A stretch of 13,324 nucleotides of DNA from a bacterium (GTDB lineage: Bacteria > CG2-30-53-67 > CG2-30-70-394). The first letter of the stretch is position 1; each line of letters begins with the position of its first letter. The translations under genes and the position numbers were made by a program. The stretch is taken from positions 1 through 13,324 of the forward strand of contig JAJRSX010000144.1 in NCBI GenBank assembly GCA_024278555.1, written 5' to 3'. Of this stretch, positions 2,080 to 13,205 are shown in pieces. Under the pieces are notes generated by a model that was not told where the DNA came from, ran no database searches, and saw nothing but the letters and a program-made list of their open reading frames with translations.

Positions 2080-2502
2080 ATGGCCCTTCCCGAGCGCGGA
2101 CCCTTCCCCACGGTGGACATCATCATCGAGATGGAGGCCGGCCGCATCTGCCTCATCGAGCGCCGCTTCCCGCCCCTGGGGTGGGCCCTGCCCGGCGGCT
2201 TCGTCGACGACGGCGAGTCCCTGGAGCAGGCGGCGGTGCGCGAGGCGCGGGAGGAGACGTCGCTCACGGTGACCCTCGTCGGCCAGCTCCACACCTACTC
2301 CGATCCGGCCCGCGACGCGCGGCTGCATACCTGCTCGACGGTCTTCGTCGCCCGTGCCACCGGCACCCCGCGGGCCGAGGACGACGCCAAGGGGATCGCC
2401 CTCGTCGACCCGGACGAGCTGCCGGCGCCGCTCTGCTTCGACCACGCGGCGATCCTCGCCGACTACCGGCGCTGGCGGCGCGAGCGGTGGCCGCTCTTTT
2501 GA
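2080..2502 (+). CDS. Nudix-family hydrolase
   Basis: Nudix enzymes cleave nucleoside diphosphates linked to another group X; the substrate here cannot be told from sequence. The 140-residue product is a typical single-domain size. The Nudix box lies at about residues 40-62: G40, E46, then R54-E55 and E58-E59 (REAREE), which supply the metal-binding glutamates. The usual glycine near the end of the box is a serine (S61), a tolerated but non-canonical change. [18 protein letters not shown] is the clearest stretch. The frame is open back to 1774, but that upstream part is repeat-derived; the ATG at 2080 begins [16 protein letters not shown] just before the first expected beta strand. No clear Shine-Dalgarno precedes it. 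It may be an ADP-ribose or oxidised-nucleotide pyrophosphatase, but this is unresolved. Confidence 0.9.
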
Positions 2503-2520
2503 ATCCCGATTTCCGGTACC

Positions 2521-2682
2521 GTGGCGCGATGGCGCGGCGGCTCCCCTCTCTCTTGCTCCTCGCGAGCGGGGCGCGGCTACGCGGCATTGGCGGCGGTGAG
2601 CCTGGCCCTGGCGTGGGGGTGGCTGTCGCGGTCGAGGAGGAGTCCCTTGGGGTCGGTAGCGTTGGCCGCAGCGTCTTACTAG
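2521..2682 (+). CDS. Possible small single-pass membrane protein or gene remnant
   Basis: Starting at a GTG 18 bases after the Nudix stop, a 53-residue frame contains the hydrophobic run GYAALAAVSLALAWGWL followed by the positive SRSRR, which looks like one membrane segment with an inside-positive tail. It then ends at TAG close to a shift to less GC-rich DNA (about 2680-2700). An overlapping frame from the ATG at 2529 begins MARRLPSLLLLASGARLR and looks like a signal-peptide start, so a frameshifted 5' remnant of a larger membrane gene is also possible. No Shine-Dalgarno or family motif supports either reading; I do not recognise it. Confidence 0.25.
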   Translation: MARWRGGSPLSCSSRAGRGYAALAAVSLALAWGWLSRSRRSPLGSVALAAASY

Positions 2683-3049
2683 GCGATAGATGGCAGGTAC
2701 GAAAATGTTCTGAATAGTAATGGGTCGCAATCGGACAATGGCGACAAGGGAGCGGCTGCGGTGGTCTCTGTGTGTTGGGTGATCGGTGATCGTTGACTCA
2801 ACTGGGTAATTATTTGCTCAAGGTGTCGCTCTTTCGCTGCCCTGTGTGTCGACGGGCGGCAATATCGAGTCGCCGGTATCACCCTGTGGGGCGGCACCTT
2901 AGTGGGGGTAAATTCGTAGAAGAATTAGAGTTTTAGCGGTCTTCTCCATGGGGGCCATCTGGTCTCCTCCGGCGGGTGGCATGGCGATTGCAATTGGTCT
3001 TGAAATCCCAAATCCTGGCTATCACCCCCTTCCCATCGGAGGATCTTCC
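2683..3049. other. Less GC-rich spacer upstream of the haem lipoprotein
   Basis: No gene is recognisable. Base composition is visibly closer to even than in the flanking genes, with AT-rich patches near 2700-2720, 2800-2820 and 2910-2935. It is the natural place for the lipoprotein promoter, but I found no -35/-10 pair good enough to call. Confidence 0.5.
3038..3042 (+). promoter_or_regulatory. Shine-Dalgarno sequence that fixes the lipoprotein start
   Basis: GGAGG lies 7 bases before the ATG at 3050. The same frame is open from 2948, but only the 3050 start gives both a ribosome site and a leading lipoprotein signal peptide. Confidence 0.8.
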
Positions 3050-4942
3050 ATGCGCCATCCCCTTCCCCTCATCCCTCACCTTGGGGTCGCCATCCTCCTG
3101 GCAACCCTCCTCGCCTGTGGAGGCGGGGGTTCCGGCTCCACCTCGAGCACCGACGCCCAGGCCTCCCTCGACCGGGCGCCGGCCGCCACCGAGACGGCAG
3201 CCCCCATTGAGACGGCAGCCCCCATTGAGACGGCAGATATTACCGGCACCCTGGCCGCCGGCACGGTGGCCGCCCAGAGTGTCGACGCGGGCAGTGCCAC
3301 CGGCATCGACATCGCCGCGGTCGACGAGCACGGCGACAAGCAGGCGGAGGAGCTCGGGGTCACCTCCACCTTCCGCCTCGCGGTGCCCACGGGCCACGAC
3401 TACGCCCTGATCTTTTCCGAGGGAGGCAGCATCATCTCCACCCTCGTCTACCGTAGCGCCGACGGCAGCGACCATTCGGACATCGCCATTCCACGCGGGA
3501 CGACCCGGGTCGATCTGGGGACGATTACCGTGGATCGCGCCGCCCAGCGGGTGGTGGTGAACGACCCGAGCATGGTGCCCGAGCCCACGACCCCGAAGAT
3601 CCCCATGGTCGACGTGGACGGGGACCACATCCCCGACTCCATCGATCCCTCCATCGACCTGCCCGCCGGCGATCCGGCGGTGGGGGCGGCGCGCTTTGCC
3701 ACCTCATGTGTCGGCTGCCATGGCGCCGATGGCTCGGGCGGGGCGGTGGTCGGCGACTCCATCCGGGGTGCCAGCAGCGACGAGGTCGCCAGCGTCCTGG
3801 CCAACGGCAACGACGGGGGGATGCCCACCTTCCCCGACCTCGTGGGCTATGCGGCGGACATTGCCGCCTTCCTCAGCGACACGGGCGCGCCCGCGGGCGA
3901 CGGCGAGACAGCCGGCGGCGGTGATAGCGGCAGCGGCGGTGACACGACGACGGGCAACGGCAGCGGCAACGGGAGCGGCGGCAACACCACCCCGGGGACG
4001 CCCTCGGCGATGGACGCCTACGCCACCCACTGCGGTGGCTGTCACGGCGCCGACGGCAGCGGCACCACCATCGCGCCGGATATCACCGGCACCTCCGCCG
4101 ACGAGCTCACCGAGGCCCTCGGTGAGGTGGATGCAATGGCGTCGGTGAGTGTTACCGCGGATGAGGTGGCCGCGATCGCTACCTTCCTCTCCGGTAACGG
4201 CGCTACCACTGGCGGCGACGAGGCTGACGGCAACGATAGCGAGGCAGACGACGACGGCGACGGCGCCGCGGTACCGGCCGCCGGGACCGCCACCATCACC
4301 GGCAGCGTGGACATCCTGGCGTTGATCAGCGGCGACGTGGAGGTCCACTCGGTGGCCACCCAGTCTCTCGACCCGGCGGATCTCCCCCATGGCGTGGAGA
4401 TCGCCGCGGTGGACGAGAGCGGCGCGACCCAGGCGGTCGCCGAGGGGGTGGTGGACGGCTTCTCCCTCACCGTTCCCACGGGTCGCACCTATGAGCTGGT
4501 GGTCTCCGACGACGAGGGGGTGATCGGGACGATGACCTACCCGGACGGCAGCGGCGGCAGCGCCACCGCCATCGAGATCGGTGCTGGGACCACCACCGTG
4601 GCGGTTGGGCGGATTACCGTGAACCCGGCGGACGGCACGGTAGAGGCGGCGACCGCGCCCGCCTTCGACACCAGCACCCCGGCGCCCACCCCCCCCCCCA
4701 CCCCGACGCCGACCCCCACGCCGACGCCCGGACCGGACGCGGCCGCGGGGCAGGCGGCCTACGCCGCGAGCTGCGCCGGCTGTCACGGTGCCACCGCCAC
4801 GGGCGGCTTCGGTCCCAACATCGTCGGCGCGAGCCAGGCGAAGGTGAGCAACGTCCTGGCGAACGGCAAGGGAGGCATGCCTGCCTTCCCGGCCCTGGTG
4901 GGCAGCGCCGCGGATATCGCCGCCTACCTGGCGACCCTGTAG
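3050..4942 (+). CDS. Triheme c-type cytochrome lipoprotein with duplicated unknown domain
   Basis: The 630-residue product begins with a lipoprotein signal peptide (lipobox LLAC, lipidated Cys23, then glycines; no Asp at +2, so outer-membrane sorting is expected). Three CxxCH haem sites follow: C220-H224, C328-H332 and C575-H579. Sites 1 and 3 have the class I axial Met in GGMP (M258, M610); site 2 has M363 (DAMAS) as a weaker candidate. An unrecognised beta-rich domain occurs twice, at about 64-172 and 415-534, sharing IAAVDE, VPTG..Y and GTT.V..G.ITV. DVDGDHIPDSIDP (about 188-200) resembles a calcium-binding thrombospondin type 3 loop. Gly/Ser/Asn-, Asp- and Pro/Thr-rich linkers (about 284-320, 385-413, 538-568) separate the modules. 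A role as a periplasmic or surface electron carrier is inferred; the redox partner is unknown. It stands alone, with its own terminator. Confidence 0.88.
   Translation: MRHPLPLIPHLGVAILLATLLACGGGGSGSTSSTDAQASLDRAPAATETAAPIETAAPIETADITGTLAAGTVAAQSVDAGSATGIDIAAVDEHGDKQAEELGVTSTFRLAVPTGHDYALIFSEGGSIISTLVYRSADGSDHSDIAIPRGTTRVDLGTITVDRAAQRVVVNDPSMVPEPTTPKIPMVDVDGDHIPDSIDPSIDLPAGDPAVGAARFATSCVGCHGADGSGGAVVGDSIRGASSDEVASVLANGNDGGMPTFPDLVGYAADIAAFLSDTGAPAGDGETAGGGDSGSGGDTTTGNGSGNGSGGNTTPGTPSAMDAYATHCGGCHGADGSGTTIAPDITGTSADELTEALGEVDAMASVSVTADEVAAIATFLSGNGATTGGDEADGNDSEADDDGDGAAVPAAGTATITGSVDILALISGDVEVHSVATQSLDPADLPHGVEIAAVDESGATQAVAEGVVDGFSLTVPTGRTYELVVSDDEGVIGTMTYPDGSGGSATAIEIGAGTTTVAVGRITVNPADGTVEAATAPAFDTSTPAPTPPPTPTPTPTPTPGPDAAAGQAAYAASCAGCHGATATGGFGPNIVGASQAKVSNVLANGKGGMPAFPALVGSAADIAAYLATL
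3191..3236 (+). repeat. In-frame 18-bp tandem repeat in the lipoprotein gene
   Basis: Two identical 18-base units (3191-3208, 3209-3226) starting GAGACGGCAG, plus a partial third, encode ETAAPI-ETAAPI-ETADI in the linker after the lipidated N-terminus. This is a slippage-prone site that can change linker length by six residues without breaking the frame. Confidence 0.85.
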
Positions 4943-4983
4943 AGAGCCTCACCTCGTAGCCCTCCTCCGCTACGGGTGAGATC

Positions 4984-5018
4984 GGCGGGCCGGCCTTCGG
5001 GCCGGCCCGCCTTTTTTT
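4984..5018 (+). terminator. Rho-independent terminator of the haem lipoprotein gene
   Basis: A perfect 12-bp GC stem (4984-4995 with 5000-5011) closes a TTCG tetraloop and is followed at once by seven T residues (5012-5018). It starts 41 bases after the lipoprotein stop codon. It is the clearest terminator in the window. Confidence 0.95.
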
Positions 5019-5273
5019 CTCCGGACGTTCGGTGGGACGCCCCGCATCCATCCCGGGCGCCGGCGGCGGTCCAGCATATGGCGGCATGGAAAGCGGGGGG
5101 CATCACGGCGAGGGGCCAAACCACGAAGACCACGAAGGGGGAGCCGCTCGGCGGGTGCGGCGTTCAACGCGGCGCGAGGAGGGGTGGGAGGGCCTCAACG
5201 CAGAGGCGCAGGGGGGCGGAGTCGCAGAGGGGGGGGCACGAGGGGACGTGGAACCACGGGGTGCCGAAAGGGG

Positions 5274-5354
5274 ATCTGTGTTCATCCGTGTTCATCCGTG
5301 GTTCCTCGTCGGGGCTTTTGTTGGAACCACGGATGAACACGGATGAACACGGAT
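5274..5354. repeat. Near-perfect inverted repeat with 32-bp arms
   Basis: Arms at 5274-5305 and 5323-5354 pair at 31 of 32 positions, and the inner 28 bp are perfect, across a 17-base spacer (5306-5322). The right arm reads GGAACCACGGATGAACACGG and then repeats the GATGAACACG unit, so each arm is itself a tandem array with a 10-base period. No T-run follows either arm. Transcribed, it would form a very stable hairpin. Confidence 0.9.
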
Positions 5355-5471
5355 GGAGGTGGCAGAGGAGGAGAGCGGGTGTCGGTGGAGCTATCCTGAG
5401 GGACGGTGCGGGCCTGGAAGGGCCGATCCAACCGTGAGTGGCATGAAGGCACGGGCTCGCTGCGCGATCCA

Positions 5472-5496
5472 GGGGCTAGGGATCAGGGGTTAGGGG
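5472..5496 (+). other. Canonical G-quadruplex motif
   Basis: The runs are GGGG-CTA-GGG-ATCA-GGGG-TTA-GGGG: four tracts of three or more guanines with loops of 3, 4 and 3 bases. This meets the standard G3+N1-7 pattern. It lies in a repeat-rich gap with no gene; a biological role is unproven. Confidence 0.55.
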
Positions 5497-5522
5497 TGGT
5501 CGGCCACCACGCGGCGTGGATC

Positions 5523-5538
5523 GCGAGCAGGAGCTCGC
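5523..5538. repeat. REP-like hairpin (reverse orientation)
   Basis: GCGAGC (5523-5528) pairs with GCTCGC (5533-5538) across AGGA and is followed by TCCTACC. On the minus strand this reads GGTAGGAGCGAGC, the same head as the element at 12101. Related GTAGGAGCGGGC hairpins are known as REP elements in pseudomonads (general knowledge). Confidence 0.55.
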
Positions 5539-5792
5539 TCCTACCGGATCCCCCCGCGGATCGCGCCGCCGCAGCGCCGCCCCACCTCCCCCTTCGTGTC
5601 GGGCGCGCAGAGCCCCTTCGTGTCTCTTCGTGGACGATCCCCCTGCCAGGCGACTCGCCGCGGGGTCCTGCCCTCCACGGCGTCGGGAGGTTCACCCTTT
5701 ACCCGCTGGGTGAGCCCCATCCGTGGTCGATCGGGGTCCTTGTCCGGAAGGGGAAGACCAGAGCCGGTGAGAATGGTGGCCGGCCGTTTTCC

Positions 5793-5821
5793 TTGACACG
5801 GCAGGGGGGCGTTGGTAGCGT
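5793..5821 (+). promoter_or_regulatory. Candidate sigma70 promoter for glyQ-glyS-ppdK
   Basis: A perfect TTGACA -35 (5793-5798) is followed after 17 bases by TAGCGT (5816-5821), which keeps the key T, A and final T of the -10 consensus. Transcription would start near 5828, about 60 bases before the glyQ ATG, with a T-rich leader (5842-5859). This is the best promoter match I saw in the window; no experiment supports it. Confidence 0.5.
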
Positions 5822-5890
5822 CCACCGCCGCTTTGTTGCGGCATTTTTTCTTTTTGTTTCAGTGGGTTGCACGCGATTTTCGGGAGTAGC

Positions 5891-6787
5891 ATGGCCGATG
5901 CCCTCGCCTTTCAGGAGGTGATCCTCCGGTTGCAGACCTTCTGGGGGGAGCGCGGCTGCTGCCTCACCCAGGGGACCGACGTGGAGGTGGGGGCGGGGAC
6001 CTTCTCGCCCCACACCTTTCTCCGCGCCCTCGGCCCGGAGCCGTGGCGCGCCGCCTATGTGCAGCCGTCCAGGCGCCCCACCGACGGCCGCTATGGGGAA
6101 AACCCGAACCGGCTGCAGCACTACTTTCAGTATCAGGTGCTCCTCAAGCCGTCGCCTCTGGAGGTGCAGGAGCTCTACCTCGACTCTCTGCGTGCGCTGG
6201 GTATCGACCCCCTCGCCCACGACATCCGCTTCGTGGAGGACGACTGGGAGTCGCCCACCCTCGGCGCCGCCGGCCTCGGCTGGGAGGTGTGGCTCGACGG
6301 CATGGAGGTGACCCAGTTCACCTACTTCCAGCAGGTCGGCGGGGTGGAGCTGTCGCCGATCCCGGTGGAGATCACCTATGGCCTGGAGCGGATCGCCATG
6401 TACCTCCAGGGGGTCGACTCGGTCTTCGATCTCGCCTGGGGGGGCGGCATCACCTACGGCCAGGTCTACCACCCGAACGAGGTGGAGCACTCCCACTACA
6501 ACTTCGAGGTGGCGGAGGTGGCGATGGTCCGGCGCCACTTCGACGAGTTCGAGCGGGAGGCCAACCGGGCGATCGACGCGGGGCTGGTCCTGCCCGGCTA
6601 CGACTACGTCTTGAAGTGCTCCCACTGCTTCAACCTGCTCGATGCCCGTGGCGCGGTGTCGGTGACCGAGCGCACCGACTACATCGGCCGGGTCCGCCAC
6701 CTGGCGCGCAAGGTGGCCAAGGCCTACCTGGCGAGCCGCGAAGAGCTGGGCTTCCCGATGCTGATGCAGCCGCAGGAGGTGGCGTGA
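5891..6787 (+). CDS. glyQ: Glycyl-tRNA synthetase alpha subunit
   Basis: GlyQ is the catalytic class II core of the bacterial alpha2beta2 glycyl-tRNA synthetase; with GlyS it charges tRNA-Gly using ATP. The 298-residue product is close to the usual length (about 300). It starts [18 protein letters not shown] and contains the family hallmarks [38 protein letters not shown] (motif 2 region), [18 protein letters not shown] and [14 protein letters not shown] (motif 3 region). The ATG at 5891 follows GGGAG at 5882-5886; a TTG eight codons upstream is possible but less likely. The C-terminus ends cleanly before an inverted repeat that separates it from glyS by 213 bases, unusually far for this operon. 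Confidence 0.97.
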
Positions 6788-12626: not shown

Positions 12627-13205
12627 GGGACTGCCCTGCTTCGTCGCCGAGCCCGTGCCCGCGACTTCGCACGGCACGAGATCACCGTCCGCGACGGTAA
12701 AGGCGGCAAGGACCGGGTCACCCTGCTGCCCCAATCCCTCCTCGGTCCGTTGCGTGACCACTTACGAACGGTCCAGGCGATTCACGAGCAGGACTTGGCC
12801 GATGGGTGGGGTCGCGTGTCCATGCCGACCGCGCTGGATCGGAAGTATCCCAATGCCCCTACCGAATGGCGCTGGCAGTGGGTGTTTCCGCAGGGAACCC
12901 GGTGGATCAATTTCGAGACGCAAGAACAGGGCCGCCACCACGTGGATGAATCTCTGATCCAGAAAGCCGTGCGCGGTGCCGTCACCAAGGCAGGATTGGC
13001 CAAGCGAGCCACCTGCCATACCTTTCGCCACTCGTTTGCCACCCACCTGCTCGAGGCCGGTTACGGCATCCGCACCGTCCAGGGGCTGTTGGGCCACAGC
13101 GACGTCAAGACCATGATGATCTACACCCATATCCTCAACCGTGGACCGGCGGCGGTTCGCAGCCCTGTAGACGGACTGTGGGGTCCGGAAGGAGGCATGC
13201 TATGA
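12627..13205 (+). pseudogene. 5'-truncated integron-type tyrosine integrase (IntI)
   Basis: Integron integrases insert and excise gene cassettes at attI and attC sites. This frame keeps the C-terminal catalytic half: [20 protein letters not shown] (catalytic Lys region), the IntI-specific extra helix [20 protein letters not shown] (about 12831-12890) followed by [28 protein letters not shown] (His 13017, Arg 13026), LLGHSDV (His 13095) and [10 protein letters not shown] (nucleophile Tyr at 13122). The N-terminal SAM-like domain and the first catalytic Arg motif (GTGLR..E in relatives) are absent: the frame opens after a TGA at about 12537, and the first 90 bases look unrelated. The only reasonable in-frame start, TTG at 12750, would omit the Lys motif as well. 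It should be inactive. A full IntI is roughly 320-340 residues. Confidence 0.85.

Follow-up and report, generated by a model that had tools for sequence, protein, structure and literature searches.

PgcA of Geobacter sulfurreducens is a lipid-anchored triheme cytochrome whose haem domains are tethered by (PT)x linkers (PMC5732950, PMC11520253). Its three tethered haem domains reach 180 Å, electrons pass by tethered diffusion, and the C-terminal domain is the mineral reductase (PMC11520253). PgcA has been presented as the first example of a class in which the tethered haems lie nanometres from one another. Here we analyse a triheme lipoprotein gene from an uncultured groundwater bacterium that names and kinship place, presumably, in the candidate phylum CG2-30-70-394, "Ca. 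Omubiota", whose genomes span 2.5–3.06 Mb at about 70% GC (PMC11382960). The gene, found in one assembly (3.06 Mb), lies on its contig C121, a stretch of 13,324 nucleotides that was analysed whole and is called the window below. A sequence-only reading had found the domain arrangement unfamiliar; a studied precedent does exist in PgcA, which that reading did not name. By analogy, and with a probability of roughly one in two, we propose that the protein works like PgcA, as an independently assembled, PgcA-like tethered cytochrome that is secreted and lipid-anchored.

The frame opens at ATG 3050, with GGAGG upstream, and closes with the stop at 4942 to give a product of 630 residues, with GC of 0.68, 0.60 and 0.88 at codon positions 1, 2 and 3 (Table 1). 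An alternative in-frame ATG further upstream, at 2948, would give 664 residues; the start at 3050 was preferred because it fits the signal peptide. A NUDIX hydrolase gene lies upstream and glyQ and glyS lie downstream, and the wider window holds tsaD, ppdK and a phage-integrase-type fragment. Given these neighbours the gene is solitary, and it has its own terminator hairpin, both as originally proposed. Among the neighbours surveyed in the window, no electron-transport gene adjoins it, and neither an oxidase nor a bc1 gene was found beside it. A scan of positions 2400–5900 found no sigma-70 promoter, the window gave no Rfam match, and the plasmid collection gave no match. Elsewhere in the window, an inverted repeat at 5274–5354 has 32-nt arms that are 97% complementary and made of CATCCGTGTTCATCCGTGG units, a unit with one further copy in the source genome, on contig C21. 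The phage-integrase-type fragment occupies 12750–13205, near the contig end and 3′ of ppdK.

Table 1. Features of the triheme lipoprotein gene, in window coordinates
Feature	Position	Strand	Details and basis
Triheme lipoprotein gene	3050..4942	+	630 aa; ORF, domain matches and sequence
Lipoprotein signal peptide	3050..3115	+	lipobox LLAC; Cys23 is the predicted lipidated residue; sequence
Gly/Ser/Ala-rich linker behind anchor	3116..3226	+	carries an 18-bp tandem duplication (ETAAPI x2)
Beta domain copy 1, residues 60-176	3227..3577	+	predicted all-beta sandwich; without Pfam family
Single TSP3-like Ca loop, motif DVDGDHIPDSIDPSID	3605..3664	+	residues 186-205; sequence
Haem domain 1, residues 207-276	3668..3877	+	CVGCH at residue 220; distal Met in GGMP
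Gly/Ser/Thr/Asp-rich flexible linker	3878..3991	+	sequence composition
Haem domain 2, residues 315-390	3992..4219	+	CGGCH at 328; Met kept at distal position, following Pro lost
Acidic linker, net -8	4220..4285	+	sequence composition
Beta domain copy 2, residues 413-540	4286..4669	+	lower-confidence model, same core strands
(PT)x linker, PgcA-like, residues 534-560	4649..4729	+	PMC5732950, PMC11520253
Haem domain 3, residues 561-630	4730..4939	+	CAGCH at 575; distal Met in GGMP
Intrinsic terminator hairpin	4984..5011	+	12 GC pairs (12-bp, all-GC), then T7

The N-terminus has a clean h-region, a lipobox that ends at C23 and Gly at +2, and the same layout of signal and lipobox recurs in the paralogues whose N-terminus is covered. 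The lipobox together with Gly at +2 suggests that the protein is anchored in the outer membrane. Ordinary outer-membrane lipoproteins face the periplasm. The lipobox and the three CxxCH sites picked out at the start both hold: the haem domains match Pfam Cytochrome_CBB3 (PF13442) in three stretches at 98.6 bits, and each is a single-haem domain with a CxxCH and a distal Met, as in class I cytochromes c (PF13442/PF00034). Met aligns at the distal position in three of three domains, in haem domain 2 without the following Pro. In haem domain 3 this Met lies in GGMPAFP, and the only His is that of CAGCH. The alignment thus predicts His/Met haems, and bis-His ligation is not indicated in the protein as judged from its residues. 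The net charges of haem domains 1, 2 and 3 are -6, -11 and 0, leaving haem 3 alone without net negative charge.

Two copies of a beta-rich domain, which the earlier reading had been unable to recognise, accompany the haem domains, and both the duplication and the lack of a family were borne out, with refined bounds. The copies are 41% identical and score 181 over about 100 aligned residues, against 40 ± 7.5 (maximum 80) in 500 shuffles. Since 181 is far above the shuffle maximum, the similarity is no chance match. No Pfam or NCBIfam family matched the domain at cut-off. PF13620 (carboxypeptidase regulatory-like) was not reached at its gathering score, single members giving sub-threshold E values of 0.077 (A1) and 0.016 (a distant homologue), and solved relatives sought by sequence were weak, partial matches alone (E ≥ 0.05). 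Structure prediction, the proposed check on the two copies, delivered for one of them. AlphaFold2, run on three sequences, gave a best beta-domain model, that of copy 1, that is all-beta at pLDDT 74.3, with the other four at 49–58; the model of copy 2 (pLDDT 58.6) was too uncertain for a structure search. Structure searches brought up beta sandwiches, transthyretin-like and CnaB-like ones among them, with a best Foldseek E of 6.5e-4 and VIA-align scores of Z ≤ 7.2, a level that is common for any beta sandwich and may reflect a common arrangement alone. The tail of copy 2 overlaps the start of the (PT)x linker that follows.

The motif DVDGDHIPDSIDPSID is one weak Ca-loop-like motif and the weakest part of the observation. 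The calcium loop claimed for this position survives as that one motif, but Pfam TSP_3 (PF02412) makes no call in the triheme protein even at E ≤ 1; in the relative P0008, TSP_3 matches at E = 0.0037, below cut-off. Relatives and paralogues carry several Ca loops against the one here, and the loop of the triheme protein is apparently reduced by comparison with its paralogues.

A profile placed the beta domain at eight sites in seven proteins of the source genome. These include the triheme protein (two sites), a diheme lipoprotein on contig C174, the domain-only exported protein beside it, lipoproteins on C93 and C185 (C185 with PPC domains), and a C115 protein with a papain-type peptidase that is interrupted by the contig end. 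The domain also occurs on lipoproteins with Big_5 domains. In the profile search of other genomes, suggested with the original observation, the domain appeared outside the genus in two of 386 genomes, both times on lipoproteins with a D-rich Ca loop behind it. With an enlarged profile, 16 of 384 genomes, around G275, proved to have members; this profile includes the two outside members, and part of its match list is therefore their own families. A scan of genome contigs with two short peptide patterns returned the CG2_30_70_394 MAG alone, the pattern missing distant homologues that the profile detects.

Of the new loci, all from other lineages, 18 were read and gave 17 readable proteins, none with a CxxCH; L074 is excluded because its reading frame was wrong. 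In most of them the N-terminus is an exported leader that contains a Cys, and the domain is followed by a D-rich motif. Homologues without CxxCH had been named as grounds for abandoning the redox proposal, and the outcome is divided: the beta-domain homologues are haem-free, whereas two haem domains persist in the nearest full-length relatives. A redox-specific role for the beta domain was rejected, the domain being present on haem-free proteins in the same genome and in other lineages. Its occurrence on haem-free exported proteins therefore argues that the beta domain is a general post-anchor spacer or platform, reused behind lipid anchors and before D-rich Ca loops. Its union with haem appears local to this genus, as far as searched. 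Found in several lineages on unrelated proteins and belonging to no Pfam family, this post-anchor domain deserves a family entry.

The closest paralogue is the diheme lipoprotein on C174 (G000:C174, L007), which has a counterpart (L038) in the genus mate of the source genome, MAG CG2_30_70_394 (G001), from which the candidate phylum presumably takes its name. Both diheme proteins share with the triheme protein the lipobox, the beta domain, Ca loops and two class I haem domains, equivalent to haems 1 and 3. They differ in their several Ca loops, in lacking haem 2 and the second beta domain, and in having another spacer. Their genes also appear to share an operon with those of a porin-like protein and a two-component system, whereas the triheme gene is solitary. 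In the paralogue operon (L007 4284-11646, minus strand) the partners are a Porin_O_P-like protein (19.0 bits, cut-off 20.9), a PBP-like protein, a dCache histidine kinase and an NtrC-type regulator, and the same set, including the domain-only exported protein, recurs in the second species. The domain-only gene beside the diheme lipoprotein looks degraded or frameshifted in G001. Oxidases or porin–cytochrome systems had been envisaged as neighbours; no oxidase lies by the triheme gene, and a porin-like protein stands beside its closest paralogue in two species.

With a dCache kinase, an NtrC-type regulator and a PBP-like protein in the paralogue operon, the triheme protein could be a redox sensor or adhesin, its beta domains binding a ligand or surface and its haems reporting redox state; some of the VIA-align rows (Z ≤ 7.2) are indeed adhesins. 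We regard this as improbable. The kinase operon belongs to the paralogue and not to the triheme gene, fold matches of that size are common to any beta sandwich, and the many unrelated partners of the beta domain suit a spacer better than a sensor. The proposal of an electron wire, or of a surface sensor or adhesin with redox function, is retained in one part: what fits best is a lipid-anchored, tethered electron carrier, with PgcA as precedent, and a redox or sensing role for the duplicated domain is unsupported.

The stretch between the two outer haems differs in all three proteins. In the C174 paralogue it is (TGG)n; in the genus mate it is DUF4215-like (25.8 bits, just under the cut-off of 27); and in the triheme protein it consists of haem 2, beta domain copy 2 and (PT)x. 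These inter-haem stretches are mutually unrelated, and the outer haem domains are conserved. Because unrelated stretches separate the same two haem domains, the non-haem parts of the triheme lipoprotein look like spacers. Spacers would be expected to be interchangeable if reach alone matters. This swap is the strongest argument here for a spacer role of the intervening parts, and it provides a natural experiment in which different kinds of spacer join one and the same pair of haem domains.

Compared with the C174 paralogue, haem domain 3 shows 75% identity to the second haem domain there and haem domain 1 shows 54% identity to the first. In a small tree of eight short sequences, haem 3 falls with the second haem domain of the paralogues (strong support), haem 1 near the first (weak support), and haem 2 with a haem domain of the class relative G003 (support 0.996). 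Haem 2 therefore looks added between two older haem domains. In this class relative we also noted, at L023 6267-7778 (G003:C200), a haem-2-like domain with Cys-rich repeats and Ca loops, and a C-terminus in which GGGGGC and a hydrophobic segment resemble a sorting signal.

Such an insertion of haem 2 and beta domain copy 2 between haems 1 and 3, with Ca loops down to one and the gene not found in the genus mate, might suggest a lineage-specific decaying or chimeric paralogue, in which duplicated modules were fused without a settled function. This is very improbable. The frame is open, with strong codon bias (GC3 0.88), a ribosome site and a terminator, and the haem motifs are intact, with distal Met in all three domains. 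In the genus mate, where no orthologue of the triheme gene was found, tsaD of the same segment is also absent from the assembly; because this neighbour is missing, the absence is uninformative. An interpretation of the absence as a sign of recent gain was discarded, tsaD being missing there too and glyQ lying at a contig edge. The glyQ match in that genome (L047 / G001:C113:595-1488) is 91% identical and spans one in-frame TGA, to be explained either by a premature stop close to the end or by a mistake in the assembly.

The source genome encodes many multihaem cytochromes. MtrB/PioB-type models found no conduit barrel in the source genome or in the genus mate. Each of the two genomes has three strong COX1-family genes, which makes respiration of oxygen or nitric oxide probable in both species. 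Marker genes for iron reduction are present in one MAG of the candidate phylum (PMC12501874), and the phylum has been inferred to oxidise sulfur via DsrL-1, read as oxidative sulfur metabolism (PMC10591310). Because oxygen or nitric oxide respiration is probable and sulfur oxidation is inferred, a cytochrome lipoprotein here need not serve extracellular acceptors.

The oxidase genes and the inferred sulfur oxidation favour a periplasm-facing carrier, held in a membrane, that would take electrons from a bc1-type complex or from sulfur-oxidising enzymes and deliver them to terminal oxidases or a nitric oxide reductase, with the spacers spanning the periplasm. Among solved structures, haem 3 is closest to bc1-complex cytochrome c and cytochrome c553, which also suits such a carrier. 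We nevertheless judge it unlikely, though worth weighing: elsewhere the beta domain accompanies peptidase, PPC and Big_5 domains, partners characteristic of proteins that are secreted or lie at the surface. The close paralogue, moreover, has a porin-like protein beside it, and the triheme gene adjoins neither an oxidase gene nor a bc1 gene.

Two further cytochrome loci of the source genome were recorded. On contig C51, L061 3309-5543 (minus strand; G000:C51) encodes an octahaem lipoprotein with an MtrC/MtrF domain match (PF22113) and an N-terminal beta-sandwich-like segment, a candidate surface cytochrome. On contig C68, L060 5020-7389 and 7359-9728 (G000:C68) are adjacent ORFs with 29 and at least 30 CxxCH, of about 790 residues each and roughly one haem per 27 residues, the second extending past the contig end. 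Their repeats match Cytochrome_C7, class III and MtrC/MtrF-type models.

We return to the PgcA-like tethered cytochrome as the preferred reading. In it, three independent class I monohaem domains with His/Met ligands would be strung along a chain of spacers, and electrons would pass between haems by tethered diffusion, as opposed to along a packed haem wire. The beta domains, the Ca loop and the linkers would act as stalks that lift and separate the haems. Haem 3, C-terminal and past the (PT)x linker, would be the outermost point at which a partner protein or mineral is contacted and would be recharged by haems 1 and 2; its net charge of 0 may fit a distinct docking role for the tip. With the anchor presumed to lie in the outer membrane, the spacing would let electrons reach further from the cell. 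Whether the protein faces outward or into the periplasm is the least certain step. In favour of the tethered reading, the lipobox, the three cytochrome domains, the two homologous beta domains and the (PT)x linker are all present in the sequence, and PgcA would supply a tested mechanism. The multihaem cytochromes, the iron-reduction markers of the phylum and the pairing of the paralogue with a Porin_O_P-like gene in two species also support it. Against it stand the lack of an electron-transport neighbour, the lack of an MtrB/PioB conduit in either genome, the weak similarity of haem 3 to PgcA, the usual periplasmic orientation of outer-membrane lipoproteins, and the COX1-family genes and inferred sulfur oxidation.

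More tentatively, tethered-haem transfer may have arisen independently outside the Geobacter lineage, in CG2-30-70-394. Class I haem domains would have been inserted into a widespread, undescribed lipoprotein family built as lipid anchor, beta sandwich and Ca loop stalk, with folded and calcium-stiffened spacers substituting for most (PT)x repeats. To find such a protein assembled separately in an unrelated candidate phylum would point to a design of general use.

The beta domain resembles the PF13620, transthyretin-like and CnaB sandwiches in being a small, extracytoplasmic, all-beta module and in showing a G-V ... F-L-VP-G-Y pattern, but its place is consistently the one that directly follows a lipid anchor and precedes a D-rich Ca loop. 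The model of the PF13442 cytochromes (cbb3 type III / class I) is matched by each of the three haem domains, but here the three copies sit on one tethered lipoprotein and not on an oxidase subunit. PgcA and the triheme protein are both lipoproteins with three CxxCH monohaem domains, long linkers between them and a (PT)x linker, and they are alike in size (a 57 kDa product, PMC5732950, against a 58 kDa polypeptide from Cys23 here). In contrast to PgcA, two folded beta domains and a Ca loop replace most of the (PT)x repeats, so that one (PT)x stretch stands before haem 3, with Gly/Ser/Asp-rich sequence or a folded beta domain serving as linker elsewhere. Domain III of PgcA is bis-His, whereas a distal-position Met is predicted here in all three haem domains. 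The two proteins belong to different phyla, and their sequence similarity is weak: haem 3 matches PgcA domain I (8qj6) at E = 0.0016 and 8qjg at 0.17, behind many other class I cytochromes. Because the folded spacers, the predicted Met ligand of haem 3 and the sequence all differ, we do not file the triheme lipoprotein as a PgcA orthologue. The tethered haem arrangement is known, studied so far in one Geobacter protein; new here are the different spacer parts.
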